DNA from: Sulfurovum sp. TSL6
GTDB lineage: Bacteria; Campylobacterota; Campylobacteria; Campylobacterales; Sulfurovaceae
NCBI RefSeq assembly: GCF_019972115.1
Contig: NZ_BPFJ01000003.1
Location: forward strand, 310,001-374,000
Direction: 5' to 3'
DNA length: 64,000 bases
A model generated the notes under the pieces. That model searched no databases. It had not been told where the DNA came from and saw nothing but the letters and a program-made list of their open reading frames with translations. Below, piece after piece: positions 13,016-40,357 of the stretch. Position 1 is the stretch's first letter. Each line of letters starts with the position of its first letter. The position numbers were made by a program, and so were the translations under genes.

Positions 13016-13051
13016 GGCCTCCTGATAGCTATATGATTATTGCAAAAGTTA

Positions 13052-13084
13052 TGTTATAATCATATAACAAATATGTTATATAAC
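13052..13084. promoter_or_regulatory. Probable ArsR operator repeats
   Basis: The divergent permease-regulator spacer has a perfect inverted repeat TGTTATA-ATCA-TATAACA (13052-13069) and a second palindrome GTTATATAAC (13075-13084), followed by a further TTGTTATATAAG. AT-rich 7-6 type inverted repeats like these are typical ArsR/SmtB binding sites. Binding would block both directions until metal is bound. Confidence 0.6.
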
Positions 13085-13120
13085 TGCATTGTTATATAAG
13101 TTTACTTAGAAAGAAGTTAA

Positions 13121-13429: not shown

Positions 13430-13651
13430 GCATCTTATTTGTGAACAAATGAAAATGAATACATTTTGATAAAATTTACTCCCTTTACTTCATCTTATTT
13501 TTGGCTAGTAAAAAATGTGAGTCTGAAAACCTATTTGGCCACGCTGTATTGAGGCCCAAATATGGCTTATCTGTAGATGCCTGCAAAGAAGCAAAAAAAG
13601 ATATTTGGAGTGTGACTTAATGCCAAATACGAATTGCTTTAGATAACATTC
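13430..13651. other. AT-rich spacer with an ORF-like fragment
   Basis: No complete gene. Bases 13508-13620 can be read as LASKKCESENLFGHAVLRP...DIWSVT then stop, without any start codon; it may be a remnant, but I cannot name it. The rest shows nothing except the two hairpins and promoter P5 listed separately. Confidence 0.3.
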
Positions 13652-13723
13652 AAAACCTTATAGCATATATAACATTATGAGGTTTTCTTACCCCTTATAT
13701 TCTATGTTAGATTATAAGGTTTT
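13652..13723. terminator. Two consecutive AAAACCTTAT-family hairpins
   Basis: The first hairpin pairs AAAACCTTAT (13652-13661) with ATGAGGTTTT (13677-13686) with one G-U. The second pairs CCTTATA (13693-13699) with TATAAGG (13713-13719) and then runs into TTTT; its loop and right arm are the same as those of the terminator at 4498. They separate the ArsR gene from promoter P5. Confidence 0.6.
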
Positions 13724-13833: not shown

Positions 13834-14304
13834 ATGAAAAATATTAACGTTACACTGATAGCACTCTTGATCATAGGATTTACAAGTTTCTCATATGGTG
13901 AAATGGGAAAATGCAGTGGTATGCAGAATTCAAATATGAAAAACAAGTCTGGAATGATGCAGAACCAAAAAGGTATGATGGGTAATCAAGGCATGATGCA
14001 AAACTCTAATTCTCAGCAACAGGTCGACAAAGTCAAAGAGTGTGTTAATGCTGCTACTACGCTTCAAGAAATTAAAAATTGTAAAATCGGAATGATGCAA
14101 ACTAATCAAGGAATGATGGGTAACAAAGGTATGATGGATGGTCAAGGTATGATGTGCAACAAAAGTATGCATTGTTGTTGCTGTTGTTGTCGAGGTATGA
14201 TGCAAGGTAATCAAGGAATGATGGGCAACAAAGGTATGATGGGTGGTCAAGGAATGATGGGCAAGAAAGGTATGAAACAGGGTCAAGGTATGATGAACAA
14301 TTAA
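13834..14304 (+). CDS. Met-rich repeat secreted protein with six consecutive cysteines
   Basis: 156 residues with signal peptide MKNINVTLIALLIIGFTSFSYG. The mature part consists of repeats of GMMGN(K/Q) and GMM(Q/G)GQ, with about 30 Met in all (19%), and a run of six Cys (C114-C119, followed by RGMMQ). A middle piece, QQQVDKVKECVNAATTLQEIKNCKIG (C70, C83), is non-repetitive and helical-looking. Met runs bind Cu(I)/Ag(I), and a poly-Cys patch would bind it tightly, so a periplasmic copper sponge is likely. The DNA repeat unit (about 18 bases, AAAGGTATGATGGGNNN-like) suggests growth by slippage. I know no named family. It is under promoter P5 and probably shares a transcript with the next gene. 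Confidence 0.8.
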   Translation: MKNINVTLIALLIIGFTSFSYGEMGKCSGMQNSNMKNKSGMMQNQKGMMGNQGMMQNSNSQQQVDKVKECVNAATTLQEIKNCKIGMMQTNQGMMGNKGMMDGQGMMCNKSMHCCCCCCRGMMQGNQGMMGNKGMMGGQGMMGKKGMKQGQGMMNN

Positions 14305-22473: not shown

Positions 22474-22908
22474 CTAATTTTTCGTTTGTCTTCTGTCGAC
22501 CGTTGGTAACGGCTTGTCAAGCTCATCTTCTGTCACGCCTTTCGCATAAGAATTGTACGACCATCGAGAGAACTGAGCAAGTAAATCCTGGTTCTCACGT
22601 ATTAGTCTTGCATTCTGTGCTTCTACTCGCTCATATCTTTGTTGAAGTACATCATATTCTATTTTATTTTTTTTCTTAGTATCTCCTGAATCTTTAAATC
22701 TATCTTGGACTGATTTATAAGCAGATTTTATTCTAGGGTGTTTCGCAAGTGTTTGACGTGTGTAATGCTCTTTTAGACGTAATTCAACCTCAGATATTAG
22801 ATCATTCCATGTTAATTTTCCAGACCATCCATCGGTAATATCAGCTATGATATCTATATCATCATCAGTTAAGTTTTTTGAGCGTTCTCGTTTTTCTTTT
22901 TGTATCAT
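22474..22908 (-). CDS. Small partner of the recombinase trio
   Basis: 144 residues, soluble. Residues 14-50 read DDDIDIIADITDGWSGKLTWNDLISEVELRL and then YTRQTLAKHPRIKSAYKSVQDRF, a putative DNA-binding helical segment, followed by a coiled coil (YDVLQQRYERVEAQNARLIRENQDLL). Small proteins of this sort are the last gene of three-recombinase cassettes (TnpC in Tn554; GmtX in gamma-mobile-trio elements is a possible analogue). The start overlaps the upstream recombinase by 4 bases. A function in recombination control is inferred from position. Confidence 0.55.
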   Translation of the reverse strand: MIQKEKRERSKNLTDDDIDIIADITDGWSGKLTWNDLISEVELRLKEHYTRQTLAKHPRIKSAYKSVQDRFKDSGDTKKKNKIEYDVLQQRYERVEAQNARLIRENQDLLAQFSRWSYNSYAKGVTEDELDKPLPTVDRRQTKN

Positions 22909-25028
22909 TTTTTGTCTCCCATATCTTCTAATAGTTTTTTCATTTCATCTAAATTGACGGATCCAGAGTCAGTATCATCGTGTTCAATTGTATTCATTTC
23001 GTTTCTTCTTATGCAGGCTTGTTCAATCGGTGATGCCATTTGAATATTAGAAAGCTGTATCAGTGAACCATCTGGTACAGTTGGATCATCCAAAATATCA
23101 CAAGTACTTTTCAGGATTTCCAGAAACCTAGTGTGAGATTCTACCCATCTGTTTGCTCCAAAATAAGATTCTTTTTGCGCATTTTTAGCAGTTATCAGAA
23201 AGCCTTCAGTATCCTTTTTCATTTCTTTGATTCTTTCAGTTCTGGCCTGGTCGCCTTTCATGCATAAATGTTCAATGCATCCCATACAATTTCTGTGATG
23301 TTCGCACGGAGTCATGGTAAAGTCGTGTATACATACACCTACTTCTGTTACATGGGCTGTTCTCACTTTTAGTCTAGCGAATTCATCACGTGAAATAACG
23401 ACTTTCTTTTTAATATCCTCGATATTGGAGAGAGGGCCTTTCATCGCATTTTCATCTCCTACTGCTTCACGTACCATTTCTAACATCTCATCTGCACTAA
23501 TGTGGTCATATGCCTGGTTTTGATGAATGTCGATTCGTCCTGACCATTTGGCAATGTCTAGCTGACTCAGTCCACCTTTTTGTGCGAGCGTATTTAAGTA
23601 GTGTCTGAATTGATGTGATGTCATTTTGATAGGACTACCGTCTAGTTCTGTATATCCAAATCGCTCAAAGAGCGAAGATAGATTTTCTCTAGATTTTAAA
23701 GCATCTGCAATAAGTTCCATTCTGATAGCACCTACTGTCGGTATCAAAGTACCTTTTTTATCATGGTATTCATTAGTCATTTGTAAAACTAATGCATCTG
23801 AAAATTTCAATTCTATCTCGTTATTTAAGTATGGAAACCTGTCAGGTAGAAATGCTAATAGGGCTTTTTCTAGATCTGAAAAGTGTATTATAAGTTTTTG
23901 AGAAACTTTTGTATATAAAACAGAATGGTTTTTCATCCATGCTATGGCAAGTTGTTTCCGTTGTTTTAAATTTTTGTGTGTAATATTTTTACCATATATG
24001 ATATAAGCAACTTCTGTAGTGCCAAGTTTTTTATTTCTTAAATATTTAAGCTCTTCAGGTAAGTAAAGTTTAGTGGGGTTATTTTCATACCATTTAGCAA
24101 CTTTTCTAGCCTGTTTGGTTACTTTCTTTATTTTACTAATGGCCTCTTTTGCAATATCCACCATTGAAGGAATGATCCATTTAATCATAGGGGAAGCACC
24201 TTTTGCAGGAAACCATCTTAATCCGTATTGCTCTATGCCTTCTGTATCTTTTTGTATTACTTCACAATCGTAAGGTAATAAAAATACTTCATTGATACGG
24301 TTGGGTGCACAGATAAGTAGGGCTATAATAGAGCTTGTCAGTTGCTCATATGGTGTTATAGCTTTATTGAAAATTTCTGGCAAGGCTTCTAGTCCTGCTT
24401 CAGAAGGCATTTTTTTATTTCTACGATCATCTGCCTCCTTTCCCACACGAGAACTATCTGATGGACGTTTGATGGGATTTTTCCAATCAGGTGCAATTTT
24501 AGTTAAACGCTTGTCTGCTAGAAACTTGCCTATATTTTGCAGTGTTGCACCGATCCTGTATCCACGCCCTTGAGAGTAGTTTGCTTTAGTAATGATGATT
24601 GCCTCATCTAGCACATAATTATCGATAGTGTTTGGGTCAGCTTTCTTATTGATATTGATAAGTGCCTGTTCAAGAATTCTTAGAGGCTCTAAGAGTTGTC
24701 CTGGTTGCTTGAAAGATTTAAGTCCAAATCGATACCGGAAGTAAGATTTTGAGAAACTTAAGAAAGGCTCAGACATTGCCTCAGTATTGTCGTCAGTAGC
24801 CTTACCAGTTTGCTTCTTAGAAGTAAAATCGTTGGTTGAAAAAATAGCTACTATACGTTTTTTTGTTCCTTTTTGTTCGATATATGAGGTAATATCCCAA
24901 ATATTATTATCAAATGATAATTCAGCACCAAAAACTGTTAATTCATCTCTACACATTGTAATAAATTTATCTAGGTTTTGATTCGAACTAAGTCTTTCCT
25001 CTGGTTCAAATATTATTGCTTCACTCAT
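22905..25028 (-). CDS. Large tyrosine-recombinase (third of the trio)
   Basis: 707 residues. The catalytic half has CAPNRINEVFLLPYD (first Arg), TSHQFRHYLNTLAQ (HxxR) and then WSGRIDIHQNQAYDH with the Tyr nucleophile expected in AYDH. Long N-terminal and C-terminal extensions are unusual for an integrase. The tail has a cysteine/His cluster (VCIHDFTMTPCEHHRNCMGCIEHLC), probably a zinc finger. Size and order recall TnpB of Tn554-like elements. Overlapping ATGA junctions link it to the genes before and after. It should act together with the other two in DNA cutting and joining. Confidence 0.75.
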   Translation of the reverse strand: MSEAIIFEPEERLSSNQNLDKFITMCRDELTVFGAELSFDNNIWDITSYIEQKGTKKRIVAIFSTNDFTSKKQTGKATDDNTEAMSEPFLSFSKSYFRYRFGLKSFKQPGQLLEPLRILEQALININKKADPNTIDNYVLDEAIIITKANYSQGRGYRIGATLQNIGKFLADKRLTKIAPDWKNPIKRPSDSSRVGKEADDRRNKKMPSEAGLEALPEIFNKAITPYEQLTSSIIALLICAPNRINEVFLLPYDCEVIQKDTEGIEQYGLRWFPAKGASPMIKWIIPSMVDIAKEAISKIKKVTKQARKVAKWYENNPTKLYLPEELKYLRNKKLGTTEVAYIIYGKNITHKNLKQRKQLAIAWMKNHSVLYTKVSQKLIIHFSDLEKALLAFLPDRFPYLNNEIELKFSDALVLQMTNEYHDKKGTLIPTVGAIRMELIADALKSRENLSSLFERFGYTELDGSPIKMTSHQFRHYLNTLAQKGGLSQLDIAKWSGRIDIHQNQAYDHISADEMLEMVREAVGDENAMKGPLSNIEDIKKKVVISRDEFARLKVRTAHVTEVGVCIHDFTMTPCEHHRNCMGCIEHLCMKGDQARTERIKEMKKDTEGFLITAKNAQKESYFGANRWVESHTRFLEILKSTCDILDDPTVPDGSLIQLSNIQMASPIEQACIRRNEMNTIEHDDTDSGSVNLDEMKKLLEDMGDKK

Positions 25029-26554
25029 GATGATGACCCCAGTATATTTTGTGATTTTATTTGCTCACATTCTACTACCACTTGTGCAACTGCGAAGATG
25101 GTTTTGTCATTGACACTGGCAATTCGGTAGTCAGTCGTCTCCATTAATCTTTCACGATCCTGTAAGAGTTTAAGAAGTATTTGTTCATGTGGACCATCAT
25201 CCCATGCTTGAAAGCTACTACAAGTGTAGCAGGCCAACGGTGCGAATAATCCACAAAATCCGAAACTACCACATTTCCCCATCGCTCTGCCTGTACTATC
25301 AATACTTGGATCAATAATGTCGCTTGTTGGATCATCGGCACGTGTTGCTTTTGATTTGTCAAAAAGCAAAAGACCTGCAAATGCTTGTGCTATGGGGGCC
25401 ATGTGTAATGCCATGGCTTTGTCGATACGTTTAATTATCTCAGGAGTCGATGCAGTGTATACTCCTGCATTTTGGATATCTTCATGGTCAAGTATCTCAG
25501 CGATGATCAGTTCACCATGTCCTTCAGATGCGGCCCTTGTACCTATGGTATACCGAAATCGTGTTGAAGTGATATGAAGCTTTTCACCAGTTCTTTCCGA
25601 TGTTAGTTCTAAGCTTCCTATGATTTTTTGAATCCTGCTCGTTATTTCTTTAGAGCTTGGATGATATGCAAGTTCTCCTGAACGATTTTCTTCTTTGGAA
25701 GGAAAAAGTGGAGCCTGGTTCGGATCATCTAAAATCCCGATAAAATCATTTTTAACTTGTTTGCCATAGCCAAAGAGCACTTTCCCCAATGATGGCGGAA
25801 CGATACGATCTTTAAATTCTGAACGTGCCTTTTTTCTTTTTTTTGCTCTTGGGATACGGATGATGTATTCCTCCGAAGCATCTTTTCGTTTGGCTTTAAT
25901 CAAATCACAGACCTTTAATTCTGCAAACTGTATAGGTCTGGAACCGTAGATCATGAAAAGCCAGACAAGAAGAAAATCCGCTTTCGGAATATCCCCATCG
26001 GCATAAGCATTATTGATGGCAGTTTGAATTCCTTCAAGTTCCAGATCTGTAAAGGGACCTTTATACGGGTCCATAGTTAAAACGGCTTTTCCTTTTTCAT
26101 TCCCTTTAAATTTAGCCTCGTTTAAATAGTCATAAGCATCATTGGAAAGCCCTGGAAAGCCCATTTCGTACCATTTCTTCAAAAAGCCTGACAAGGCACC
26201 TAAATAGTACTGATGTTTAGAATCTAGTGTACTATTGTAATTAATGAGGTGTATCGATGTGATTGTGGTCATATTATTTTCTGATTGTTCATATGAAAAC
26301 TTCAAGAATTCTTTGAATCGGAAATACATATTGACTGCATGTTTTAATGCATGGTTTTCCAGATACCAGATGAACACTCGCTTCAGTCCATACTTGTGAC
26401 TATCTGAAATATGTAGATTTGTAATGTTCATTTGATGTTTACCAACGATATCGCTAAATATCCAAACATCATCATTAGGATCAAATATCAGGCCATTTTT
26501 TGTTTTGGCTTTGGAGAGAAAGTGTCCGGTTTGATGGTGAGGTGTATTTTTCAT
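25025..26554 (-). CDS. Tyrosine-type recombinase (second of the trio)
   Basis: 509 residues. First Arg region YGSRPIQFAELKV; the HxxR box reads TSTRFRYTIGTRAA, so the usual His of box II is Thr; then EILDHEDIQNAGVYTAS gives His and the Tyr nucleophile. The C-terminal stretch carries four cysteines (GKCGSFGFCGLFAPLACYTC). The weak box II raises the possibility of reduced or partner-dependent catalysis. The start overlaps the end of the first recombinase by 4 bases, and the end overlaps the third. Confidence 0.75.
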   Translation of the reverse strand: MKNTPHHQTGHFLSKAKTKNGLIFDPNDDVWIFSDIVGKHQMNITNLHISDSHKYGLKRVFIWYLENHALKHAVNMYFRFKEFLKFSYEQSENNMTTITSIHLINYNSTLDSKHQYYLGALSGFLKKWYEMGFPGLSNDAYDYLNEAKFKGNEKGKAVLTMDPYKGPFTDLELEGIQTAINNAYADGDIPKADFLLVWLFMIYGSRPIQFAELKVCDLIKAKRKDASEEYIIRIPRAKKRKKARSEFKDRIVPPSLGKVLFGYGKQVKNDFIGILDDPNQAPLFPSKEENRSGELAYHPSSKEITSRIQKIIGSLELTSERTGEKLHITSTRFRYTIGTRAASEGHGELIIAEILDHEDIQNAGVYTASTPEIIKRIDKAMALHMAPIAQAFAGLLLFDKSKATRADDPTSDIIDPSIDSTGRAMGKCGSFGFCGLFAPLACYTCSSFQAWDDGPHEQILLKLLQDRERLMETTDYRIASVNDKTIFAVAQVVVECEQIKSQNILGSSS

Positions 26555-27867
26555 TCTTTAGCCCAGTCAGGTAGATCTTCCTCTTGAGGAAACTTATTAT
26601 CCATCTGTAAAATAGACTCGTTGGCTTTACGCTGAACATGACGCTTTGTATATGTTTCCGCACTGCCTGATGTTTCCTCCCACCCCATCAGGTATGCACG
26701 CATCTTCTGCTCTTCCTCTTCGGATACATTTCTTTCATCCATTAAAGCAGAAAAATTGTCATTCCATGTATGTCTGAGTATATGAGGTGTTAAGTTTTTA
26801 AATACATCAGGGTAGCACTTTTTCAGTTTGGAAAAGACCTTATTTACAGAGTCCAGACTCATGGGTGAACCTGTCTTGGATGCGACAAATAAAAATTCAT
26901 GTCTTCCTGCTTTCGGTAGAGCAGTTCGATGTTTGGTGATATAATCAAGTGTGAGTCTGACTATTTTCTTTGGCATGAAAATTTTACGTCCGTATGTTTT
27001 TTGGGTAGGCTGATTAAGCCTAGGGTCTTCCGGGTCATCGGGACGACGTACAATATTAAATGTCTCAGATCTGAAATCAAGATCTGAGATCTTGAGACCT
27101 AGAAGTTCACTTCTTCTGAGCCCGAATTGATACAGCCATAAAATGAGCAACTCATTTCGGATCTTTGTAAAATTATTTTTCCATGGATTATAAGGTGAAC
27201 CTCGATCAACCACTTCAAAGAGTTTGTCAATGGCTTCTTCAGATAAGCCCATAGGTGCATTTTCAGATGAATTATGTGAAGTCCCTGGGATTCTTGAATT
27301 CAGGGTGGATTCAACAAAGTCTTTTGCATCTTTAAGTAACATGAATGTCATATCTCGTTCAGGAAGTTTTGCCATATGAATATTGGCCATCCATACTAAA
27401 AAATTCTTGATCACTCTCATGCGATTTCCCGTGGCATCAGAACTTATTGTAATGATTTGTTTCTTGGAAGTGTTGGAACGGAATTTTTCTAAAGAGTGAG
27501 TATTGATAGACTGCTTTGACTTCTGGGGTACAGTGATATCCGCACAAATCTCTTTGAGCGGCAGTTTGCATGTATCGCAGAGACTTTCAATCTCATGCAG
27601 ATGAAGAAGCTTTCCTTGCTGGAGTCTTTTCTTCAGGTCTATCCCTTCAAGACTGTAATTCTTCAAAAAAATCTTTAACAGCATTAATGAGCGTAAGACC
27701 TGTTCAATTGTGTTTACGGCATCACCTTTTGATCTATGTTGTGAAATTGAAAAAACAGTGCTCCAATAATCAGGCATACCAGTTTCTTTCTCAATCAACA
27801 TTGGGAATCTTTCTCCACTAGAAAACAATACTTTTTTAATGTAATAGGGTGTCATATTTATTTCCAT
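26551..27867 (-). CDS. Tyrosine-type recombinase (first of the trio)
   Basis: 438 residues. It has the clearest integrase signature: FGLRRSELLGLKISDLDF (box I Arg), HILRHTWND (HxxR) and GSAETYTKRH with the Tyr nucleophile. The N-terminal 200 residues are a helical arm-binding/core-binding region. It is the first gene of the four-gene overlapping operon, with its start 121 bases from the ssb stop. The inverted repeat at 27916-27969 lies just upstream and may be an attachment site or its promoter/operator. Confidence 0.85.
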   Translation of the reverse strand: MEINMTPYYIKKVLFSSGERFPMLIEKETGMPDYWSTVFSISQHRSKGDAVNTIEQVLRSLMLLKIFLKNYSLEGIDLKKRLQQGKLLHLHEIESLCDTCKLPLKEICADITVPQKSKQSINTHSLEKFRSNTSKKQIITISSDATGNRMRVIKNFLVWMANIHMAKLPERDMTFMLLKDAKDFVESTLNSRIPGTSHNSSENAPMGLSEEAIDKLFEVVDRGSPYNPWKNNFTKIRNELLILWLYQFGLRRSELLGLKISDLDFRSETFNIVRRPDDPEDPRLNQPTQKTYGRKIFMPKKIVRLTLDYITKHRTALPKAGRHEFLFVASKTGSPMSLDSVNKVFSKLKKCYPDVFKNLTPHILRHTWNDNFSALMDERNVSEEEEQKMRAYLMGWEETSGSAETYTKRHVQRKANESILQMDNKFPQEEDLPDWAKE

Positions 27868-27915
27868 TTTTCTTGTTACACATTATAGCATAAAATGGAA
27901 AGGAGTTAAAAAAAG

Positions 27916-27969
27916 TGTAAATAACGTATACTCTCCTTAATATAGGGGATATGGTATGAGTTATTTACA
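27916..27969. repeat. Inverted repeat at the element-ssb junction (candidate att site)
   Basis: TGTAAATAAC (27916-27925) and GTTATTTACA (27960-27969) are perfect 10-bp arms; extending them to 19 bases keeps 16 matches. The 34-base spacer is AT-rich. Opposed arms around a short core are the form of tyrosine-recombinase core sites. It could instead be an operator for the integrase promoter. Confidence 0.4.
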
Positions 27970-27987
27970 TTTGTATTTTGTTATAGG

Positions 27988-28485
27988 TTAAAACGGTATT
28001 TCATCTTCATTGATGTCAATTTCTGGAATGTTTGACGTAGGTTGTGGTGCAGCTTTCGGAGCAGACGGTGCAGGTTGGCTATAGTTGTCATGTGATGGAG
28101 CATTATAATCTGATGATCCACTTTGACTATATCCGTTACCACCCATAGGTGCTGCTTCGTCTTTACTTCCTAGCATTTGAAGGTTTTCCACTGTTACTGA
28201 GTGTCTACTTCTTTTGCTACCATCTTGTGCTGTCCACTGATCTAGCTTCAATCTTCCATCTACTAAAACTTTGCTACCTTTACGTAAGTACTGATTCGCA
28301 ATTTCAGCAGTTCTACCAAAAAAAGTAAGGTCTATAAAGAGTACTTCTTCTTTTTGTTCACCAGTTGCAGATTTGAATTTACGTGAAGTTGCGATGGCAG
28401 TATTACCAATCGCACTTCCACTTTGTGTATATTTAATCTCAATATCTCTAGTGAGGTTTCCGGCTAAAATTATCTTGTTGTACAT
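27988..28485 (-). CDS. ssb: Single-stranded DNA-binding protein
   Basis: 165 residues: an OB-fold (MYNKIILAGNLTRDIEIKYTQSGSAIGNTAIATSRKF to about 110), a Gly/Ser/Pro-rich linker and the acidic C-terminal tip DINEDEIPF that binds partner proteins. It coats ssDNA in replication and repair. It starts 25 bases after rpsF on the minus strand, as in other Campylobacterota. The rpsR gene that normally follows is not here; the integrative element begins instead. Confidence 0.95.
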   Translation of the reverse strand: MYNKIILAGNLTRDIEIKYTQSGSAIGNTAIATSRKFKSATGEQKEEVLFIDLTFFGRTAEIANQYLRKGSKVLVDGRLKLDQWTAQDGSKRSRHSVTVENLQMLGSKDEAAPMGGNGYSQSGSSDYNAPSHDNYSQPAPSAPKAAPQPTSNIPEIDINEDEIPF

Positions 28486-28510
28486 AAGGTGGCTCCTAAT
28501 CTATGGTTGA

Positions 28511-28894
28511 TTATGCTTCTGTCGCTTCTGCTTCAGGTGCTTTTGTCTCTGCTGCAGCGCTTTTGTTCGCTTCTGCCACAAGTTTATCAAATTGTGCGAT
28601 CTCTTTTTGTTTAGTATATTTCACAGTTAAAAACTTAATGATATCTTCGCTGATCTTAAGATTTCTCTCGAGTTCTTCGATAGTGCTACCTGCTGCTTTA
28701 TAGAAAAGAACAGTGTAGTAACCTCTGTTATGTTTTTCTACTTGGTATGCAAGTTTTCTCATACCCATATCATTCGTACCAACTAGCTCGGCACCTTCTT
28801 TAGCAAGAATATCTTTTACTTTCGTAATTTGTGCTGCAATCTCTTCTTCTGTAAGTGTAGGTTTAACTACAAACAGTGTTTCATAACAAGTCAT
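28511..28894 (-). CDS. rpsF: 30S ribosomal protein S6
   Basis: 127 residues: MTCYETLFVVKPTLTEEEIAAQITKVKDIL, then MGMRKLAYQVEKHNRGYYTVLFYKA, the standard S6 fold, with an acidic Ala/Glu-rich tail (SAAAETKAPEAEATEA). It forms the S6-S18 contact in the small subunit. In most relatives the order is rpsF-ssb-rpsR; here the S18 gene is missing from the window. Confidence 0.95.
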   Translation of the reverse strand: MTCYETLFVVKPTLTEEEIAAQITKVKDILAKEGAELVGTNDMGMRKLAYQVEKHNRGYYTVLFYKAAGSTIEELERNLKISEDIIKFLTVKYTKQKEIAQFDKLVAEANKSAAAETKAPEAEATEA

Positions 28895-29122
28895 ATTGTT
28901 TCCTTTTGGTTTAATAGCCCATGTATACAGCTGTATCTTTCACTAATGTGAATATAGCTGTCCAAAAATGAGCAAGAATTTTGGAAGCGATATTTTACTA
29001 TATTATCCCTTAGCTGCACATTAGACAGTAATTTACCCTATAAAGAAAATGAAGAAACATTGAATATTAATAAGTATTTTTGTATCATTTAGTAAAGTTA
29101 ATTTATGATCAAGGTGTTTATT

Positions 29123-29851
29123 ATGGAAAGAAGAAATTTTTTACGTGTATCTGCAACATCAGCAATGGCAGTCGCTATTGCACCTTCACTTGTGACTCAA
29201 AGGCTTTATGCAGAAGATGGTAGTCTGTTTCAAACGTTTGAAAAAGTACAACTTAAAGATACTGATGGTAACCCTCTTAAGTCTGCTTCCTTGGCAGTAG
29301 AAGAAAACTATGTATTTCATTATCCGCATGTATCCACCCCGGCCATTATGGTCAATCTTGCAACACCGGCCCAAAAGGACATTAAGCTCAAAGCAGAAGA
29401 TGGAACGGAATATATCTATAGAGGCGGTTTAGGAGTCAATGGAACCATTGTTGCCTATTCTGCTATCTGCCCCCACCAATTAACACACCCGCAGCCTGAG
29501 ATGAGTATGTTCCAGTATGTGGAAGAAAAAGGTAAAACACTTGCGTATGACAAAGGCGGGGTTTTTGTCTGTAGTTCACATCTTTCGGCATTTGACGCTA
29601 AAGAAGGTGGAAAAGTAGTAGGCGGACCGGCCAACGAAGGTTTGGCATCTATCATTCTTGAGATTGATGCAGAGGATAACATGTGGGCGGTTGCAGTGTT
29701 GGGTCCAGTGAAGTTCCAGGATTATTTTGATGCTTTCAAAGATGAGTTTAAAAAATTCTATGGGAATAGAAGGAAAGCGAAAAAACTTACAAAGGAAGAG
29801 GCAAAAGTGCAACCCCTTAAAAACTTTTCAGCAGAACTTATCCAAGCCTAA
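29123..29851 (+). CDS. Tat-exported Rieske 2Fe-2S protein
   Basis: 242 residues from the ATG at 29123 (AAGGTG six bases upstream; an upstream ATG at 29105 lacks a ribosome site). MERRNFLRVSATSAMAVAIAPSLV is a Tat-like twin-Arg signal. The cluster ligands are C116-P-H118 in AICPHQLTHP and C150-x-x-H153 in VCSSHLSAFD, with a gap of about 30 residues, longer than in the usual CTH/CPCHGS pair. The iron-sulfur centre would carry electrons in the periplasm. It lies directly before the FccB-like flavoprotein on the same strand, and a joint redox role in sulfide oxidation is likely but not shown. A hairpin follows. Confidence 0.82.
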   Translation: MERRNFLRVSATSAMAVAIAPSLVTQRLYAEDGSLFQTFEKVQLKDTDGNPLKSASLAVEENYVFHYPHVSTPAIMVNLATPAQKDIKLKAEDGTEYIYRGGLGVNGTIVAYSAICPHQLTHPQPEMSMFQYVEEKGKTLAYDKGGVFVCSSHLSAFDAKEGGKVVGGPANEGLASIILEIDAEDNMWAVAVLGPVKFQDYFDAFKDEFKKFYGNRRKAKKLTKEEAKVQPLKNFSAELIQA

Positions 29852-29860
29852 AAGAGCACA

Positions 29861-29893
29861 CATAAGGTATGATAGTCTTTCTCATACCTTATG
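29861..29893 (+). terminator. Hairpin after the Rieske gene
   Basis: CATAAGGTATGA (29861-29872) pairs perfectly with TCATACCTTATG (29882-29893) around a 9-base loop, then ATTATTTCTTC. It would end or attenuate transcription before the flavoprotein gene. Confidence 0.6.
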
Positions 29894-30048
29894 ATTATTT
29901 CTTCAAAATTTCATGTGCTTTTTTGTTACCTCATCAAATTAATTCATATATTACTTCAAAGTAATTTACTTTATATATAATTTTTGTCATAATTAATTAC
30001 TTTATGTTATGTAAAGAGTTTAACAAACCAATTCTAATAGGAGACATT

Positions 30049-31413
30049 ATGGCAATGAATAGAAGAGATACGTTTAAACTGGCAGGTGCTGCTGCAGCCG
30101 CTGTAGCAATGCCAAGCATCGCAATAGCAAGCGAGAAAAAAGCAGATGTGAAAAAAACCAATGGTAGATCAGTAGTGATCGTAGGTGGTGGTTTTGGTGG
30201 TCTTACCATGGCGAAAGCACTTCGGAAAAAAGATAAAAGTATTGAAGTAACAGTCATTGAAAAGAACAATATCTTCATGGCATGCCCTTTCTCTAATACA
30301 CTGCTTGGTGGTCTTGACGGTGTCAGTTTGGACACTTTTGTCGGGGACTACTATCAGCCGGCTGCAAAGTATGGCTACAGTTTTGTACAGGCAACAGTGA
30401 CTGCTATCGACAGAAAAGCGAAAACTGTTACAACGACCAATGGTGATTTCGCCTATGATATTCTTGTGCTTTCTCCGGGTATTGCATATGATTATGAAGG
30501 ACAATTCCCTGCATGGTCAAAAGAGAAGATCGCTGAAGTTTCGCAAGCCTGTCCTTCTGCATTAATGCCTGGTAATGAACATATTGCACTAAAGCGGCAA
30601 CTTGAAGATATGGATGATGGTAATGTGATCATTGTACCGCCTGCAATGGGAAAATACAGATGTCCTCCAGCACCCTATGAGAGAACTGCCATGGTAGCAA
30701 ATTACATGAAAAATGAAGGGATCAACGGAAAAGTGATCGTGCTTGATACGAGAAATGGTAAATTTGCCAAAGGGGCAGCCTTTAAGGAATCTTGGGATGA
30801 ACTATTCCCAGATATTATTGAGTATAAAGGGCTTACAGAAGTGACAGATATTGATGTTTCAGCTAAAACAATTACCTATACAGAGTTTGCTGATGCAGAT
30901 GATGAAAAAGGTGTCAGTAAAACTGAGAAATATGAAGTTTGTAACCTTATACCTATCAACAAATGTTCACCGGTAATCGCTATGGCGGGGATAGAAGTCA
31001 ATGGTGCAGGGTACGCAATGATGGATGGGTATAGCTTCAAATCTAAAACAGATTCAAACATCTATGTTGTCGGTGATGCGGTCACACATGCGATACCGCC
31101 AAGCGGACAGACGGCTATTTGGGCAGCAAACAGAGCAGCAGGACAAATTGTAGCCCAGATCAACAAGCAAGTTTCAGATCCTAAAGAAGGCCTTCCTGCC
31201 AGGGCAGCAAATGTATGTTATTCCATGGTAGGGAGTAAACCAGAAGAAGCGATCATGGTGACACATACATTCTCTGCAGATCCAAGCGGTAAGCTGAAAG
31301 GTAAAGGACATGTACCTAAGCCAAAAGATGGTGGCGGTAAATTCAGATCTAAAGGTACTGCAAAAGCTACTAGAGAGTGGTTTGGTGGTGTGATGAGAGA
31401 ACTCTTCTCTTAA
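30049..31413 (+). CDS. Tat-exported FAD-dependent sulfide dehydrogenase (FccB-like)
   Basis: 454 residues from ATG at 30049 (AATAGGAGACATT ribosome site; an in-frame ATG at 30004 is poorly placed). Tat signal NRRDTFKLAGAAAAAVAMP with MAMNRR. FAD-binding: VVIVGGGFGGLTMAKALRKKD. The FccB/SQR family cysteines are in FMACPFSNTLLGG and MGKYRCPPAPYERTAM, the latter a clear FccB signature. C-terminal: SNIYVVGDAVTHAIPPSGQTAIWAANRAA. It oxidises sulfide (or a related thiol) in the periplasm and probably passes electrons to a cytochrome; the usual FccA cytochrome partner is not adjacent. The Rieske protein upstream may substitute. Confidence 0.88.
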   Translation: MAMNRRDTFKLAGAAAAAVAMPSIAIASEKKADVKKTNGRSVVIVGGGFGGLTMAKALRKKDKSIEVTVIEKNNIFMACPFSNTLLGGLDGVSLDTFVGDYYQPAAKYGYSFVQATVTAIDRKAKTVTTTNGDFAYDILVLSPGIAYDYEGQFPAWSKEKIAEVSQACPSALMPGNEHIALKRQLEDMDDGNVIIVPPAMGKYRCPPAPYERTAMVANYMKNEGINGKVIVLDTRNGKFAKGAAFKESWDELFPDIIEYKGLTEVTDIDVSAKTITYTEFADADDEKGVSKTEKYEVCNLIPINKCSPVIAMAGIEVNGAGYAMMDGYSFKSKTDSNIYVVGDAVTHAIPPSGQTAIWAANRAAGQIVAQINKQVSDPKEGLPARAANVCYSMVGSKPEEAIMVTHTFSADPSGKLKGKGHVPKPKDGGGKFRSKGTAKATREWFGGVMRELFS

Positions 31414-31433
31414 TAGGTCATCTTTTTAATGAT

Positions 31434-31515
31434 TTGCACTCATCTTTGAAAGGTGAGTGCAGTTACATACTGACGTATGCTCCTTTACTCAAACTTTCAA
31501 ATCTAAGCATAACTC
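31434..31515 (+). repeat. 3' repeat element R1 (downstream of the flavoprotein gene)
   Basis: About 80 bases with two hairpins: GCACTCATCTTT pairing with AAAGGTGAGTGC, and CATAC-TGAC-GTATG. The middle 25 bases (starting TGCAGTTACATACTGACG) are identical to those in R2 at 43398, while the first hairpin differs but stays paired. It lies 20 bases after the stop codon and may be a terminator, 3'UTR regulatory element or short mobile repeat. Confidence 0.7.
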
Positions 31516-31564
31516 ATTAAAAACCTTAACCTATTAAACTTTTCAAAATAAAATAAAAATAATT

Positions 31565-32542
31565 TTATAGATATCCCTGCAATTTGATCAGCATACTGTA
31601 AACCAATACCTCTTTTTGTGTAGCTGGTGCCTTTTTGATGAGTATCTCACTCTCCAGTAAATGTTCAAATATCTTCAGCAAGGCAGCTGATTTTACACGT
31701 AAGGCCAACTGTGCTTTTTGTTCTTCTATCTGCTTAGGCAGTTTATAGCCCAGTATTGCTGCTGAATCTACATGTCCATGGAGTTTGATATAGGCATGAA
31801 AGAGGAAGATCTGATTGACAAAATATTGTGTGGAACGAAGCAGTGAAGCTTCATCTTCCCCCAGTTCAAGTAGTTTGGTAATGGTTGCCGTGATGGGCTT
31901 TTTGTTAAAAAGGTCTATGAGTAACTGTTCTGTTGCCAGAGGTGCAGTAGAGTAGACCAGTCTATCGATATCTTTACTTGTGACTTTCATGCCCAGAATG
32001 GCAAGCTTATCCAGCTCATTGGCACAAAGTGCCAGGTTGTTATTGAGTATGAGCATAAGATGCTGCAGGGCATAGTGGTCAATGTCAAGCTGTATCTGCT
32101 GTGCTTTTTGTTGCAGCATAGCGATACCGTCACGTATGTTGGGCTCGAAGAATCGTACCCATGCCCCGCCTTTTTTCTCACTGAAGGCTGCTTGCATACT
32201 CTTTGCATCTTTGGGGGCACCTGCATAAGCATAAAGGAAGTAGTTATCTTCACTTTTATTGGCCAGTTCTATGAGAATATCGAGTTCTTTTTTGGGTATT
32301 TTTTTATCGTGTTTGACCACTACAAGATTGGTACCGCCAAACAGAGACGTCTGGGAAAGAAAATTCTTAGCCTGTTCAAAGTCCCATTCATCGTGATAGA
32401 GATTGAGCATACTCTCTTTTGCATCTGTTTTTTTGATATAGGTATCGATATAATGGTCTACCAGGTAGTCATTTTCACCATAAAACAATACAGCTTTGGG
32501 AAAAGCCTGTTTCAGTTTCTGGTCAAATTCTCTTTGGTACAT
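31565..32542 (-). CDS. holA: DNA polymerase III subunit delta
   Basis: 325 residues with the Campylobacterota HolA layout: MYQREFDQKLKQAFPKAVLFYGENDYLVDHYIDTYIKKT at the start, a Rossmann-like domain with VVVKHDKKIPKKELD, and a C-terminal helical clamp-loader domain (LGYKLPKQIEEQKAQLALRVKSAALLKIFEHLLESEI). It opens the sliding clamp as part of the tau/gamma complex. Its start overlaps the end of the ribonuclease R gene by a base, as in H. pylori order rnr-holA. Confidence 0.85.
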   Translation of the reverse strand: MYQREFDQKLKQAFPKAVLFYGENDYLVDHYIDTYIKKTDAKESMLNLYHDEWDFEQAKNFLSQTSLFGGTNLVVVKHDKKIPKKELDILIELANKSEDNYFLYAYAGAPKDAKSMQAAFSEKKGGAWVRFFEPNIRDGIAMLQQKAQQIQLDIDHYALQHLMLILNNNLALCANELDKLAILGMKVTSKDIDRLVYSTAPLATEQLLIDLFNKKPITATITKLLELGEDEASLLRSTQYFVNQIFLFHAYIKLHGHVDSAAILGYKLPKQIEEQKAQLALRVKSAALLKIFEHLLESEILIKKAPATQKEVLVYSMLIKLQGYL

Positions 32543-34512
32543 TAGACTAGCTCCATTTCATCTTTACTCAATTTTTCAACGAATTCAACCATGATGATAG
32601 CCTGTGGGATATTGACTTCATTGATCTTTACTTTGACTCTATCAAAAAGCATCACATTGTCACCTTTAAGATGCACGGTAACTCCTTTGATCTCGCCTAA
32701 GAGCACTGCTTTAGCGCTCTCTTCTACTTCGATGATCTCTGCTTCGAAGATCTCACCTAAGTGTGTAACTGCCCAACGTGCAAATTTACGGTCTCTAAAG
32801 TCCCATTCTGCTTTGGTCGCATCTCTTTCAAGTTCACTGACCCTTGCACAGAGGGGCTCGATATTTCTTAACAGATAGCTTGCTTCTTCCAGTTCCTCTC
32901 GCAGTTGTGTTTTGATAAGGCGATGCAGTATGAGGTCGGCATATCTACGTATGGGTGAGGTAAAGTGGCTGTAGTGACTAAAGCCAAGGCCAAAGTGTCC
33001 TACATTTTGTGCTGAGTAGCTTGCTCGCCGTAAAGATTTAATGACCATAGCATCCACTTCTGAAGAAAGGTTCATTCTTGCTGCTTCTTTTTGTATAGCA
33101 CGTATAAGAGAAGGCGCATCTTCATACTCTTCAACATAGAGACCGATGGCTGCAAGTTCAGCCAGTAAAGCTTCTATCTTCGCAAGTTGCGGTGGTTCAT
33201 GGATACGAAAGATACTGTCACCTTCACCCGTAAAACGTTTCGCTGAGGCTTGGTTGGCCAGGAGCATACACTCTTCTATGAGCGAGTGTGACGGCGTTCC
33301 TGTTTCTATCTCTGTATTAACCAGTAGATGTGCTGCATCGATCGTGAGCTTGGTCTCTTCAGATCTAAAGTCAAAACCATGTCTGAGCCGTTCATTACGT
33401 AATCTGACCGTTATTTTTTGTAAGGGAAGCAACCATGTGAGGATTTGGGCTACCGTATCCGTGACACCTCCCGTTCCATTTTCCAATATTTCATCGATAT
33501 TGTCATAATTAAAACGGTGCTTTGAGTGTATGATCGCTTCAAAGAATTCTTCTTTTAACGGTTTCAGGGTAGTCTTGTCCAACTCTATCTTCGATACAAA
33601 GGCAAGTCTGTCTACTTTAGGTTTGAGTGAACAGATGTTTTCACTGAGTTCACGAGGGAGCATAGGAAAAGATTTGTGTGGCAGGTATGTGGTGAAACCT
33701 CTTTTTTTTGCCTCTTTGTCAATGTTGGTAAAGAAAGGCACATAGTGACTGACATCTGCGATAGCAACATAAAGGGTATACGTGTCCATATCAAAATAGA
33801 TAGCATCATCAAAATCTTTTGCAGTCACCGGGTCAATGGTACAGAAATCAAGATGCGTGAGATCCACACGGTCAGGATGTTCTTCTTTGGTGACTTCTAC
33901 TTCAACATCCAGTGCATCTGTGACACACTCTGGCGGGAATTCATCTTCACGCTCATAGAGTGCAAGAGAGATCTTTTCATCAACCTTAGGGTCATCCAGT
34001 GTTCCCATGACTTCAAGAACTTTATCTGTATCAACATCTACTTTTAACACGGTTCCCAGTTTAAAAGCTTTGAGGTCCATACCTTCCATCACGGCATGCG
34101 TAGGTTCTCCTGTACGGATGTTAAGGATAAGGAAATTACCCGATTCATCCCTATGGGTGTAAGCGATAGTGAAAAGAAAGGCTTTTTCTATGACCAGCTG
34201 TACTTTACCGCTGGCACGTCCACGTCTGGCGATGATACGCTTGGCGACGACCACATCTCCATGTTTTGCACCCCGAAGATCATCAGGTTCTACCAGCAGG
34301 TCTCTTTGTTCTTTGAACTCTGCTTCTATATACCCTTTGCCATCTTTACCTATGTAGAGTCTACCCACACGATAGATAGATTTCAGTTTCCAAAGCCCAT
34401 CGACTTCTTCAAGGGCACCCAGTTGCTGGAGCGCCTGAAAACTGTTCTGGTCTTCTTGTTCGATGTCTGAAATAAGGCATCCGTGGGTAAGTTGTATGGC
34501 AAATGGGGACAT
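32542..34512 (-). CDS. rnr: Ribonuclease R (RNB-family exoribonuclease)
   Basis: 656 residues, the short Campylobacterota form. It has a cold-shock/OB part (about 20-160), the RNB domain with FCTIDPVTAKDFDDAIYFDM (metal-binding Asp residues) and the HYVPFFTNIDKEAKKRGFTTYLPHKSFPMLPREL region, and a C-terminal S1 domain. The enzyme degrades structured RNA 3' to 5'. It starts the rnr-holA pair, expected also to precede rpsF and ssb in relatives, but two opposite-strand genes now lie between holA and rpsF. Confidence 0.92.
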   Translation of the reverse strand: MSPFAIQLTHGCLISDIEQEDQNSFQALQQLGALEEVDGLWKLKSIYRVGRLYIGKDGKGYIEAEFKEQRDLLVEPDDLRGAKHGDVVVAKRIIARRGRASGKVQLVIEKAFLFTIAYTHRDESGNFLILNIRTGEPTHAVMEGMDLKAFKLGTVLKVDVDTDKVLEVMGTLDDPKVDEKISLALYEREDEFPPECVTDALDVEVEVTKEEHPDRVDLTHLDFCTIDPVTAKDFDDAIYFDMDTYTLYVAIADVSHYVPFFTNIDKEAKKRGFTTYLPHKSFPMLPRELSENICSLKPKVDRLAFVSKIELDKTTLKPLKEEFFEAIIHSKHRFNYDNIDEILENGTGGVTDTVAQILTWLLPLQKITVRLRNERLRHGFDFRSEETKLTIDAAHLLVNTEIETGTPSHSLIEECMLLANQASAKRFTGEGDSIFRIHEPPQLAKIEALLAELAAIGLYVEEYEDAPSLIRAIQKEAARMNLSSEVDAMVIKSLRRASYSAQNVGHFGLGFSHYSHFTSPIRRYADLILHRLIKTQLREELEEASYLLRNIEPLCARVSELERDATKAEWDFRDRKFARWAVTHLGEIFEAEIIEVEESAKAVLLGEIKGVTVHLKGDNVMLFDRVKVKINEVNIPQAIIMVEFVEKLSKDEMELV

Positions 34513-37142: not shown

Positions 37143-38864
37143 TCATTGATTTAACAATACTACAATGATGACGGATAAGCCTAAAGAGATCATCTTCCAC
37201 AAAAGTACCGGGTTGCGTTCTAACAATGGTGGTCTGGACTTATTTAAAAAGGCTTTATTGGGGTGCCGTAAGTCATACAAAAACTCCGACAATTCTCCAT
37301 AACGTTTATAGGGGTTTGGTTCCAATGCTTTTTTCAGTACCTCATCGACCCACAGTGGCACTTCATGGATATCAGGATTCAAGTGTTTATATTTCAATTT
37401 TCTTTGGGCTGCTTTTGTTGTAGATTTAGCGACCTGTGTGCCGTAAGGAAGCTCACCGGTAATCATCTGATAGACGATCACTGCCAAGGAGAAAAGATCG
37501 GACCTTGATGATCCAATGTATCCAAGAAAATATTCTGGTGCAGTGTAGGGTGCCGTTCCAAGTATATTCTCCTGTTTTATATAGGCATTGCTTTCCACGA
37601 TCCCTTCAACCCTGGTTGAACCAAAATCAATGATCTTTACCGTTCCTGTAGTGTCGATCATGATATTTTCAGGCCTCAGATCCTGATGTATCATTTCTTG
37701 ACGATGCAGTGCGAGCAAGCCTTTGGCTATCTGTTCTGCAATTTCACGGACAGTTTCTATGTCTGGGTTTGGGTTATCGATCATCCACTGCGTCAAGGTC
37801 TGACCATCGATAAATTCTGTCACATTATAAATATAGTTACGTTCACGCGTCTGCAGATAGGATTTGACCAAATGTGCATTATTCATACGTATGGCGATCC
37901 ATTCTTCAAGTAAAAATCGTTCGAGATAAGCCTGGTCTTCACTGAGGTCAATGGAAGGTGTTTTGAGAACAACTTGCGTATCCGTTTGGGTATCAACCGC
38001 CAGGTAGACATGACTTCTACTGCTGGCACTCAACTCACGAATGATCTTGTACCCATCAAAGTCCATTCGTGCTTCAAGCAGTGGCGGCAAGGGTTTTTCA
38101 CTCAATTGTTTTTGGATCTCGTTGGCATCTTTATCGGGCAGTGTATTTACTTTTACAAGCTGAATGGTCAAATTGTCATCACTGCCTTTTTCATAGGCTG
38201 TCTCTACTATGTGTTTTGCTGCAGCATTCAGATCACCATTGCTTTGCTCTATGATACTTATCATAAGGTCAGCGCTGACATATTCATAGACGCCATCTGT
38301 CATAAATAAAAAAATGTCATCTATTTCTACTGGTACAGTATCGTAATCAATTTTCAGATCTGAATCAACACCCAAGGCACGACCAAGATAACTTTTTTCT
38401 TGTGAGATCCACATGCGATGATCTTCAGTCAACTGCTCCATTTCATTATTTCTCAATTGATAGATACGTGCATCACCTACATGAAAAATATGGGCTGTCG
38501 TTGACCTGATCACCATAGCACTAAAGGTACAGACATAGCCTTTATTGGCATCATAATAGTATTGGCTTTGTTTTGTTTGTGCATAGAGCCATGAGTTGGT
38601 CGCAGTAATCACACGTTGTGCAGATTTTTGCACAGACCAGGATTCAGGTGTACTAAAATAATCCATTAAAAATGAGGTAACGGATGTTTTACTGGCCGTT
38701 TGACTTACTTTACTGCTGCTGATTCCATCAGCTAAAGCAATGGCAATCCCTTTATAGGTCAATTGGGGTTCTTGAGGTATACAAATATCATGAAAATCTT
38801 GATTTACCTCTTTACGTCCTTTAGTGGAATGTTCGCCAATAGATATTGTTAATTGCTTTTCCAT
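37143..38864 (-). CDS. Fused PP2C phosphatase and Ser/Thr protein kinase
   Basis: 573 residues in three parts. The PP2C phosphatase (about 5-245) shows N21-Q-D, ALADGISSS (D46), HVGDARIYQL, FMTDGVYEYV and DDNLTIQLV. The protein kinase (about 270-540) has VVLKTP, IHQDLRPENIMID (catalytic D395; HQD instead of HRD), IDFGSTRV (D413) and TAPEYFLG. A C-terminal membrane helix (LLWKMISLGLSVIIVVLL) anchors it. One protein thus both adds and removes phosphate, presumably at the membrane. It is last of the cluster with cynS and an FNT channel; in some pseudomonads a similar fusion sits beside nitrate/nitrite transport genes, so transport control is a reasonable guess. Confidence 0.9.
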   Translation of the reverse strand: MEKQLTISIGEHSTKGRKEVNQDFHDICIPQEPQLTYKGIAIALADGISSSKVSQTASKTSVTSFLMDYFSTPESWSVQKSAQRVITATNSWLYAQTKQSQYYYDANKGYVCTFSAMVIRSTTAHIFHVGDARIYQLRNNEMEQLTEDHRMWISQEKSYLGRALGVDSDLKIDYDTVPVEIDDIFLFMTDGVYEYVSADLMISIIEQSNGDLNAAAKHIVETAYEKGSDDNLTIQLVKVNTLPDKDANEIQKQLSEKPLPPLLEARMDFDGYKIIRELSASSRSHVYLAVDTQTDTQVVLKTPSIDLSEDQAYLERFLLEEWIAIRMNNAHLVKSYLQTRERNYIYNVTEFIDGQTLTQWMIDNPNPDIETVREIAEQIAKGLLALHRQEMIHQDLRPENIMIDTTGTVKIIDFGSTRVEGIVESNAYIKQENILGTAPYTAPEYFLGYIGSSRSDLFSLAVIVYQMITGELPYGTQVAKSTTKAAQRKLKYKHLNPDIHEVPLWVDEVLKKALEPNPYKRYGELSEFLYDLRHPNKAFLNKSRPPLLERNPVLLWKMISLGLSVIIVVLLNQ

Positions 38865-38996
38865 GTTGTTAAGTAACCTTATTGAGCCTAAACTTTATAT
38901 AGAGTCAGATTCAGTTTTATAAGTATTTAATTAAAATCTTTTCAATGTGAAAAAGCCCTTAATTCAAAACTTTTCGATCTTATTTTTTATTGTAGC

Positions 38997-39028
38997 AAAA
39001 GATTAAGACCTGTCGGAATTAATCTTTT
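38997..39028 (-). terminator. Hairpin after cynS
   Basis: AAAAGATTAA (38997-39006) pairs with TTAATCTTTT (39019-39028) around a 12-base loop. It lies just after the cynS stop and may limit read-through into the kinase gene. Confidence 0.5.
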
Positions 39029-39037
39029 ATCACTACA

Positions 39038-39478
39038 TTACCATGATTTATAAGGTAAAAATTTACCATTCATGGTGATCACAACCCTGTCACCCAATGG
39101 GTTTTCTTCTTTGTCTATGTCCAAAGAGAAATCAATGGCACTCATAATACCATCTCCGAACTTTTCACCAACGATCTCTTTGATCGTTTCACCATAAACT
39201 CCGACCACTTCATACAGACGATAGACTAGAGGATCCTGAGGTATCGTAAAGTCCCAGGTTTTGTTAGGATATTCCTGTAAAGTGATCGCCACTTCTTCAT
39301 CTAAACCAAGTGCTTCACACAGTTTTTCTGCAGGTTCCTTTTTTAGGCTGTTCATCCCCAAACAAGCTGAAGTAACGAAAGTGGTCGATAGACCAACTTT
39401 CTCAGCTAACGCTTCCCAGCTCATCTTGGCACTTTTTCTTGCCAGGACTATTGCTTCAGTCATCTCTATTTTTTTCAT
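39038..39478 (-). CDS. cynS: Cyanate hydratase (cyanase)
   Basis: 146 residues. The N-terminal helical part (EAIVLARKSAKMSWEALAEKVGLS) is the POU-like domain. The catalytic residues align with E. coli Arg96, Glu99 and Ser122 at a constant offset of nine: R87 and E90 in YRLYE, S113 in MSAID. It converts cyanate and bicarbonate to ammonia and CO2. It lies 39 bases after the FNT channel gene, so both are likely made together. Confidence 0.96.
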   Translation of the reverse strand: MKKIEMTEAIVLARKSAKMSWEALAEKVGLSTTFVTSACLGMNSLKKEPAEKLCEALGLDEEVAITLQEYPNKTWDFTIPQDPLVYRLYEVVGVYGETIKEIVGEKFGDGIMSAIDFSLDIDKEENPLGDRVVITMNGKFLPYKSW

Positions 39479-39517
39479 ATAATATATCCTTTTTAATAGT
39501 GTTTTATAGACTTCAGC

Positions 39518-40357
39518 TTACGCAGCTGAAGCGTCTTTTGCTTTGATGCTCAATTCACGTTTTGCTCCAGTTCTTACGTGTGTTGCATAAAGAGTCAATC
39601 CAGTAAAGAGAAGACCACCCGTTAGGTTACCCAATGCAACCGGTAGTTCATTCCAAAGCAGGTAATCTACTACTGTAAAGTCACCACCCATGATCAAAGA
39701 GAATGGGAAAAGGAACATGTTAACGATCGAGTGTTCAAAGCCCATAAAGAAGAACAGCATGATCGGCATCCACATAGCGATAGCTTTACCGCTCACAGTT
39801 GTTGAGATCATCGCACCTACAACACCCATTGCTACCATCCAGTTACAAAGCATTCCACGGATGAATACCGTAAACCAACCAGAAATACCGTGCGCTTGAT
39901 AACCCAGTGTTCTTGCTTCACCGATACCTGCAACTTTTTGAGCAATAGCACCACCATCCGTATCAAAACCGTATGTAAATATGAAAGCACTCATAAACGC
40001 AACCGTTAACGCACCTAGAAGGTTACCAAGTCCCACTAGACCCCAGTTTCTAAGTATCTGACCTATAGTCACCCCTGGTCGTTTATCGATCCATGCCAAC
40101 GGCACCAATACAAATACACCTGTCAATAAATCAAAGCTCATTAAATAAAGCATAATAAACCCAACAGGGAAGAACGCTGCACCAACAAGACCTGAACCAG
40201 TTTTCATCGCAACAGTAATTGCAAATACAGCAGCTAGTGCTAAAATTGCTCCCGCCATGTAAGCTCGTATCAGTGTATCTTTCGTAGACATATATACTTT
40301 TGACTCACCAGAGTCAACCATTTTCTTCACAAATTCCGTAGGCATTAAATAAGACAT
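39518..40357 (-). CDS. FNT-family formate/nitrite-type channel (possible cyanate or nitrite)
   Basis: 279 residues with six membrane helices. The fold shows the FNT pattern: FAITVAMKTGSGLVGAAFFPVGFIMLYLMSFDLLTG (the MSFDLLTG resembles the ELFTG of FocA), the broken helix region NLLGALTVAFMSAF, GMLCNWMVAMGVVGAM and GFEHSIVNMFLFPF (GxEHxxxN, a FNT hallmark). GGAGTG lies at good spacing before the ATG. It is the first gene of the unit with cynS, so the substrate may be cyanate or nitrite. An inverted repeat TTATAGG/CCTATAA at 40423-40447 sits upstream. Confidence 0.9.
   Translation of the reverse strand: MSYLMPTEFVKKMVDSGESKVYMSTKDTLIRAYMAGAILALAAVFAITVAMKTGSGLVGAAFFPVGFIMLYLMSFDLLTGVFVLVPLAWIDKRPGVTIGQILRNWGLVGLGNLLGALTVAFMSAFIFTYGFDTDGGAIAQKVAGIGEARTLGYQAHGISGWFTVFIRGMLCNWMVAMGVVGAMISTTVSGKAIAMWMPIMLFFFMGFEHSIVNMFLFPFSLIMGGDFTVVDYLLWNELPVALGNLTGGLLFTGLTLYATHVRTGAKRELSIKAKDASAA

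Follow-up and report, generated by a model that had tools for sequence, protein, structure and literature searches.

Genomic islands of the GInt type bear, at one end, three integrase-like genes together with a small fourth one of the HLH/coiled-coil kind; a large cargo of 2.5 to about 70 kb starts after ginD, the far end is short, AT-rich and poorly conserved, and the ends have imperfect direct repeats of 10 to 17 nucleotides (nt). They insert preferentially at the end of ssb, the product of which stays unchanged, and their excision as circles requires all four genes (Bardaji et al. 2017, PMC5385486). An island of this appearance adjoins ssb in Sulfurovum sp. TSL6 (genome G000), where it separates ssb from rpsR, the gene of ribosomal protein S18, and carries an rpsR copy of its own. 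Its ssb-proximal part lies in the stretch that we analysed, the 64,000 nt of contig NZ_BPFJ01000003.1 (C3) from position 310001 to 374000, hereafter the window, to which all positions without a prefix refer. The island shares with the GInts the gene set, the cargo, the AT-rich end, the imperfect repeats and the insertion at the end of ssb (PMC5385486). Different from them, it features a complete S18 gene with an operon-type leader, which does not appear in the main text of the GInt paper (PMC5385486), where a word-start search for rpsR, S18, ribosomal and Campylobacter found no occurrence.

Other described elements resemble the island in single respects. Tn552-II, a Tn554-type element, carries tgl, a homologue of its target gene, and its authors suggest that tgl may rescue the disrupted target; however, the target of Tn552-II is an interrupted YolD-like gene (PMC12486829), whereas the present island leaves ssb untouched and carries the gene downstream of it, rpsR, with a promoter block and leader of its own. 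The SaPI4-type islands of staphylococci likewise use the rpsR region as an integration hub, but they have one integrase, insert at the 3' end of rpsR and have 15-bp repeats, and no extra S18 is mentioned in the part of the source considered here (PMC8407400). Finally, viruses are known as mobile DNA that carries ribosomal protein genes; these encode 14 different proteins and, in the part of the source considered here, are not tied to the repair of an insertion site (PMC6375957). In the open-licence literature on rpsR or S18 on islands and on GInts, we found no report of the present arrangement. The element is of a known kind, while the rpsR unit with leader that it carries and the locked state discussed below, in which the operon stays split for good, are undescribed in the open-licence literature searched.

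The island looks like a GInt-type element, because its gene set, its repeats, its AT-rich far end and its insertion at the ssb stop codon match those of GInts. It spans about 54 kb (C3:283817-337988) between ssb and the outer of two rpsR copies (rpsR-A). Its four ginABCD-type genes are consecutive and all lie on the minus strand. The ginA-like gene (26551-27867) encodes a tyrosine recombinase of 438 amino acids (PF00589, 5e-18), and homologues stand beside ssb in G068, G090, G135 and G138 as well as in G227, a genome of another family. The ginB-like gene (25025-26554) encodes a second tyrosine recombinase, of 509 amino acids (NF041502, 1.3e-168; its PF00589 match at 2e-5 is under the Pfam cut-off). 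The ginC-like protein (22905-25028; 707 amino acids) found no match in Pfam and NCBIfam searches and was recognized by homologues that occupy this position in G090, G138 and G227; the ginD-like small coiled-coil protein (22474-22908; 144 amino acids) was recognized by its conserved position and by coiled-coil-like Pfam matches below the cut-off. The cargo follows at 1-22473, where the open reading frames (ORFs) were read by eye and no strand applies to the block as a whole, and its remainder lies left of the window together with the far end that holds the second rpsR copy, rpsR-B (C3:283817-310000). The cargo size is within the range of GInts. By eye, metal-efflux genes make up cargo in G000 and, partly, in G090. 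Among such genes we also noticed Met- and Gly-rich, low-complexity small proteins with GMMG-type repeats (13834-14304, and 13312-13722 of locus L004), which by eye could be copper binders.

Inverted sequences related to each other are present at the two ends of the island, as are imperfect direct repeats of about 11 nt, ATACCGTTTTA and ATAACCTTTTTA. The first of these repeats, the ssb-side attachment site (att), covers the 3' end of ssb (27989-27999, minus strand), as read in the window and from the 11-nt overlap of flanking sequences described below; the adjoining element end (27868-27988, minus strand) bears the terminal repeat TATAACAAAATAC..TGTAAATAAC, which aligns as an inverted match to the distal end. 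The base following this att is supplied by the element and turns the ssb stop codon from TAG into TAA, so that the target gene (27988-28485, minus strand; PF00436) keeps its stop codon and SSB is unchanged. Insertion at the ssb stop codon, each time with the codon kept, recurs in all five loci that have both rpsR copies. At the far end, the 521-bp segment 3' of rpsR-B is 75% AT, compared with 61% for the window, and can be aligned across the five islands.

An RIT element was considered and ruled out by the presence of recombinase-like genes of 438, 509 and 707 amino acids and of a fourth, 144-amino-acid gene, since RIT elements consist of three recombinases of about 315 to 410 amino acids with no fourth gene (PMC10214605). 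The ginB-like protein is 31% identical to a protein of Achromobacter kerstersii, which there is part of a cluster of four genes that match in size and follow an ssb-like gene; a tblastn search of that cluster with window queries gave no match at 1e-3. A scan of GTDB contigs returned three loci, namely, this Achromobacter GInt-like cluster, the contig of a Sulfurovum metagenome-assembled genome and a short match in Pseudovibrio, and a GinB pattern scan of IMG/VR found no relatives of the island. Of 398 genomes sampled from the order, 4 have GinA-like matches, and of 397 sampled from the phylum, 2 have GinB above the cut-off.

The site of insertion is documented by a pair of close relatives, one of which (G137) has an empty site with contiguous rpsF-ssb-rpsR, while the other (G138) contains the island. 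Their flanks are 99.28% identical over 2632 bp on one side and 99.34% over 2430 bp on the other; at the ssb stop codon, the two flanks share an overlap of 11 nt. The rpsR-A of G138 is identical to the rpsR of G137 at 264 of 264 positions, while its rpsR-B is 97.3% identical; because the first copy equals the gene of the empty relative and the second differs, comparison of these sequences identifies rpsR-A as the host gene and rpsR-B as the copy that came with the island.

The same pair of copies, side by side, was found in five genomes (G000, G068, G090, G135 and G138). In G000, a search for the S18 family located them at C3:283599-283751 and C3:284384-284536. Copy A stands directly beyond the distal att and retains a Shine-Dalgarno sequence, which is all that is kept upstream of it. 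Copy B lies within the island close to its far end; upstream of it come a promoter-like block and an rpsF-type leader and downstream, in G000, a hairpin (fold z = -4.0). The copies of G000 differ at 5 of 264 bases and their proteins at one residue; those of G068 are 82.6% identical. Across the five genomes the differences are mostly silent, the synonymous distance (dS) ranging from 0.08 to 1.10 and the nonsynonymous distance (dN) from 0.005 to 0.076, with dN well below dS in every genome (e.g., 0.076/1.10 and 0.017/0.44). These sequence comparisons show that the copies have separate origins and are under purifying selection. A third rpsR in G138 was rejected as an assembly duplicate, since the segment comprising the rpsR 5' part, the 3' end and copy B repeats identically around a run of N; this run with its identical flanks (L005:7371-7666), which yields three apparent rpsR genes, looks like an unmerged scaffold overlap. 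A second rpsR in G098, a 57-codon piece at a contig start, was set aside, as were the extra rpsR genes of G111 and G162, two genomes with two rpsF loci each.

The leader that precedes rpsR-B is of the same type as the one in front of rpsF (28892-28986, minus strand, in the window). We recognized it with a covariance model (R1) built from rpsF leaders only, using 26 of the 30 extracted (those of G106, G119, G135 and G140 were left out for length or divergence) and run on 50 loci and 175 genomes of the family. The model matched in 140 of the 175 genomes and matched twice in 14, namely, in G111 and G162, at their two rpsF loci, and in 12 genomes where the second match lies directly before rpsR (G000, G068, G070, G081, G090, G097, G106, G116, G119, G131, G135 and G138). 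None of these 12 has an intact ssb-rpsR junction, and none of the 55 genomes (of 78 in the genus) with an intact junction has the leader before rpsR. The remaining 11 genomes of the genus comprise eight with neither rpsR nor rpsF detected, one with rpsF only (G088), one masked by N at the site (G071) and one in which both genes lie about 1 kb apart and the site differs (G133). Furthermore, when the promoter blocks of the 12 detached rpsR genes were compared with one another and with 28 rpsF promoters, each scored closest to an rpsR unit, the smallest margin being 21.5 versus 18.0 in G116; this similarity points to a single origin of the leader-rpsR unit.

As for its structure, the leader contains two predicted helices that would form a pseudoknot. 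Over 12 pairs, 95.0% of the alignment cells are paired, compared with 92.8% in shuffles (0 of 500 as high), and three pairs show compensatory changes, a count that 83 of 500 shuffles reach as well. All 42 distinct rows are paired at the long-range helix (GCUCR/YGGGC), in an alignment that was fitted to that helix and hence favours it. The S6:S18-responsive leader of the rpsF operon has its Shine-Dalgarno sequence inside the structure and brings about repression upon joint overexpression of S6 and S18 in Escherichia coli (PMC4647458). The present leader resembles it as an rpsF-operon leader with the Shine-Dalgarno sequence inside the structure; it differs in having no Rfam match, in standing before a lone rpsR and in being known from sequence alone (PMC4647458). 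We therefore call it an rpsF-type leader, for which control by S6:S18 is inferred by analogy with the E. coli work. The leader at 28892-28986, together with the other rpsF leaders, could be an uncatalogued ribosomal leader of the family.

Seven of the 12 detached loci (G097, G131, G106, G070, G081, G116 and G119) hold a single rpsR with the leader before it. The distal att is present in all five loci with both copies versus none of these seven. The distance from ssb to rpsR is 30 kb in G097, 2 kb in G131 and 0.5 kb in G106, and the two genes lie on different contigs in G070, G081, G116 and G119; the ssb-side island end is retained in G097, G070 and G131. Because the single rpsR has the island leader, no distal att and, in five loci (G131, G106, G116, G081 and G119), the host methyltransferase gene directly after it, these loci are consistent with recombination between copies B and A, by which the island promoter and leader would come to stand before the downstream part of the host locus and the distal att would be lost. 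A chimera test of the rpsR of G097 had one diagnostic base, too weak to prove recombination. In G131, the cargo reads by eye as an ArsR-like regulator and a permease, similar to those at 11885-13429 of the window. Genes reading as hydrogenase structural or maturation genes stand beside the detached rpsR or ssb in L009, L005, L024 and L034 (G097, G138, G070 and G119); in G138 the gin operon is still present along with them, and islands may have delivered hydrogen metabolism.

S18 is an essential protein. We consider it likely that a GInt-type island split rpsF-ssb-rpsR and carries its own S18 unit as a rescue for this essential gene, with the copies recombining later. In this sequence of events, the island entered at the ssb stop codon by site-specific recombination and split the operon, and near its far end it holds a self-contained S18 unit made of promoter-like block, rpsF-type leader, rpsR and 3' hairpin. 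The host rpsR would be cut off from the operon transcript, S18 would be supplied by the island copy, and the leader would subject this copy to the kind of control that S6 is under. Later on, recombination between the rpsR copies would delete the distal att and fix the cargo, the end state being a permanently split S6/S18 operon in which rpsR stands behind the island's promoter and leader. A broader proposal, to which we give even chances, is that in this genus the island family acts as a carrier of a complete, leader-controlled S18 gene, a built-in rescue and stabilization module that would open an essential ribosomal operon to the island and have the host take its S18 from there, with S6 control in trans from 54 kb; recombination of the island copy with the host copy would lock metal-resistance or hydrogenase cargo into the chromosome and move a core ribosomal gene horizontally.

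Several observations weigh against this proposed course of events. G227, which belongs to another family, has gin genes after ssb and its only rpsR at a distance of 26 kb, with no leader match and no extra copy; thus not every ssb-site GInt needs an additional rpsR. A full GinC-like gene is present in only 3 of the 78 genomes of the genus, and 4 of the 12 detached loci (G081, G106, G116 and G119) have no recognizable GInt end. Copy A is intact in all five genomes with both copies and so may still be expressed. A sigma-70 scan showed no excess of promoter-like sites over shuffles around both rpsR genes and no such site at the proposed promoter of copy B. Moreover, the leader has no Rfam match at E<=5, and the two leader folds of G000 are only modestly better than shuffles (z of -1.3 and -2.0).

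The island of G227 also bears on the alternative that fares best, although we regard it as unlikely: rpsR-B could be a functionless passenger captured in imprecise events, the host copy being driven by a promoter in the island end. G227 lives with such an island without an extra rpsR, and outward transcription from GInts has been reported, albeit from the ginA end (PMC5385486). However, dN is well below dS, and all 12 detached loci keep the leader and promoter block ahead of rpsR, among them the seven that have one rpsR and lack the distal att. Appreciably less probable is a local tandem duplication of the host gene that took place at the time of insertion or later, so that copy B would be no part of the mobile element. 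It would fit the adjacency of the copies in all five genomes and the few differences between those of G000, but it is largely refuted by the G137/G138 pair, in which copy A equals the gene of the empty relative and copy B differs, and it also disagrees with the dS of 1.1 in G068 and with the promoter block, leader and 3' segment that copy B has in common across islands of different genomes. That the extra S18 is an adaptive paralogue, e.g., a zinc-independent form for metal stress as the metal-efflux cargo of G000 and partly of G090 might suggest, is highly improbable in view of the three cysteines common to the 33 S18 sequences compared, with no difference between A and B, the single residue by which the G000 proteins differ and the cargo near rpsR in G138 and G097, which reads as hydrogenase genes.

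In the family of G227, none of 61 genomes has two rpsR genes, and a promoter scan in G227 gave no clear excess over shuffles. The cargo of its island (L045/L050) contains repeated transposase-like ORFs and genes reading as type I restriction-modification. In G469, from another family, ginA-like and ginD-like matches follow ssb (L047:11598-14111), ginB and ginC are unmatched and rpsR is on another contig; this is possibly a decayed GInt.

The sequence-only reading of the window had described the row rnr-holA-rpsF-ssb-rpsR as broken twice. Relatives, e.g., L027 (G064), have the row rnr-holA-rpsF-ssb-rpsR-methyltransferase-hisG, and in G000 the outer rpsR copy is closely followed by the methyltransferase gene and hisG. 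Pfam bore out the reading's identification of rnr (RNase R; 32542-34512), rpsF (S6; 28511-28894; PF01250) and ssb on the minus strand and of the Rieske gene (29105-29851) and the FccB gene (FCSD; 30004-31413) on the plus strand. Its holA call, for a 325-amino-acid ORF (31565-32542, minus strand), is supported by position and by conservation between rnr and rpsF in relatives; a Pfam search with the ORF found no match at 1e-4. The Rieske and FccB genes are situated between this ORF and rpsF. No S18 gene stands directly after ssb, where the tyrosine recombinase gene comes next, just as the reading had said, and its expectation that the insertion had displaced rpsR to the far end of the island was right, the S18 family search placing rpsR about 54 kb away on the same contig. 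The expectation was understated, the second, element-borne rpsR having gone unforeseen. The counterevidence named by the reading, that relatives without the element would likewise lack rpsR at this place, is contradicted by the empty G137 with its contiguous rpsF-ssb-rpsR.

The two breaks do not form one story as the reading had it, but are unrelated events. The Rieske gene precedes rpsF in the empty G137 as well as in occupied genomes, and in G131 and G081, both with a detached rpsR, holA adjoins rpsF with no Rieske gene before it. Because the gene is present in the one and absent there in the others, the Rieske/FccB block (29105-31413, plus strand) is a separate, older rearrangement, independent of the island. 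Elsewhere in the window and outside the island, consecutive ORFs at 37143-40357 read by eye as a phosphatase-kinase fusion, a cyanase and a formate/nitrite-type transporter.

The arrangement illustrates how an essential ribosomal operon could take up a site-specific island while the host survives. It offers a concrete route for the horizontal replacement of a core ribosomal gene, and an explanation for the permanent splitting of conserved operons such as rpsF-ssb-rpsR. Moreover, the rpsF-type leader before rpsR provides a sequence signature by which current and former islands, together with their fixed cargo, can be recognized.

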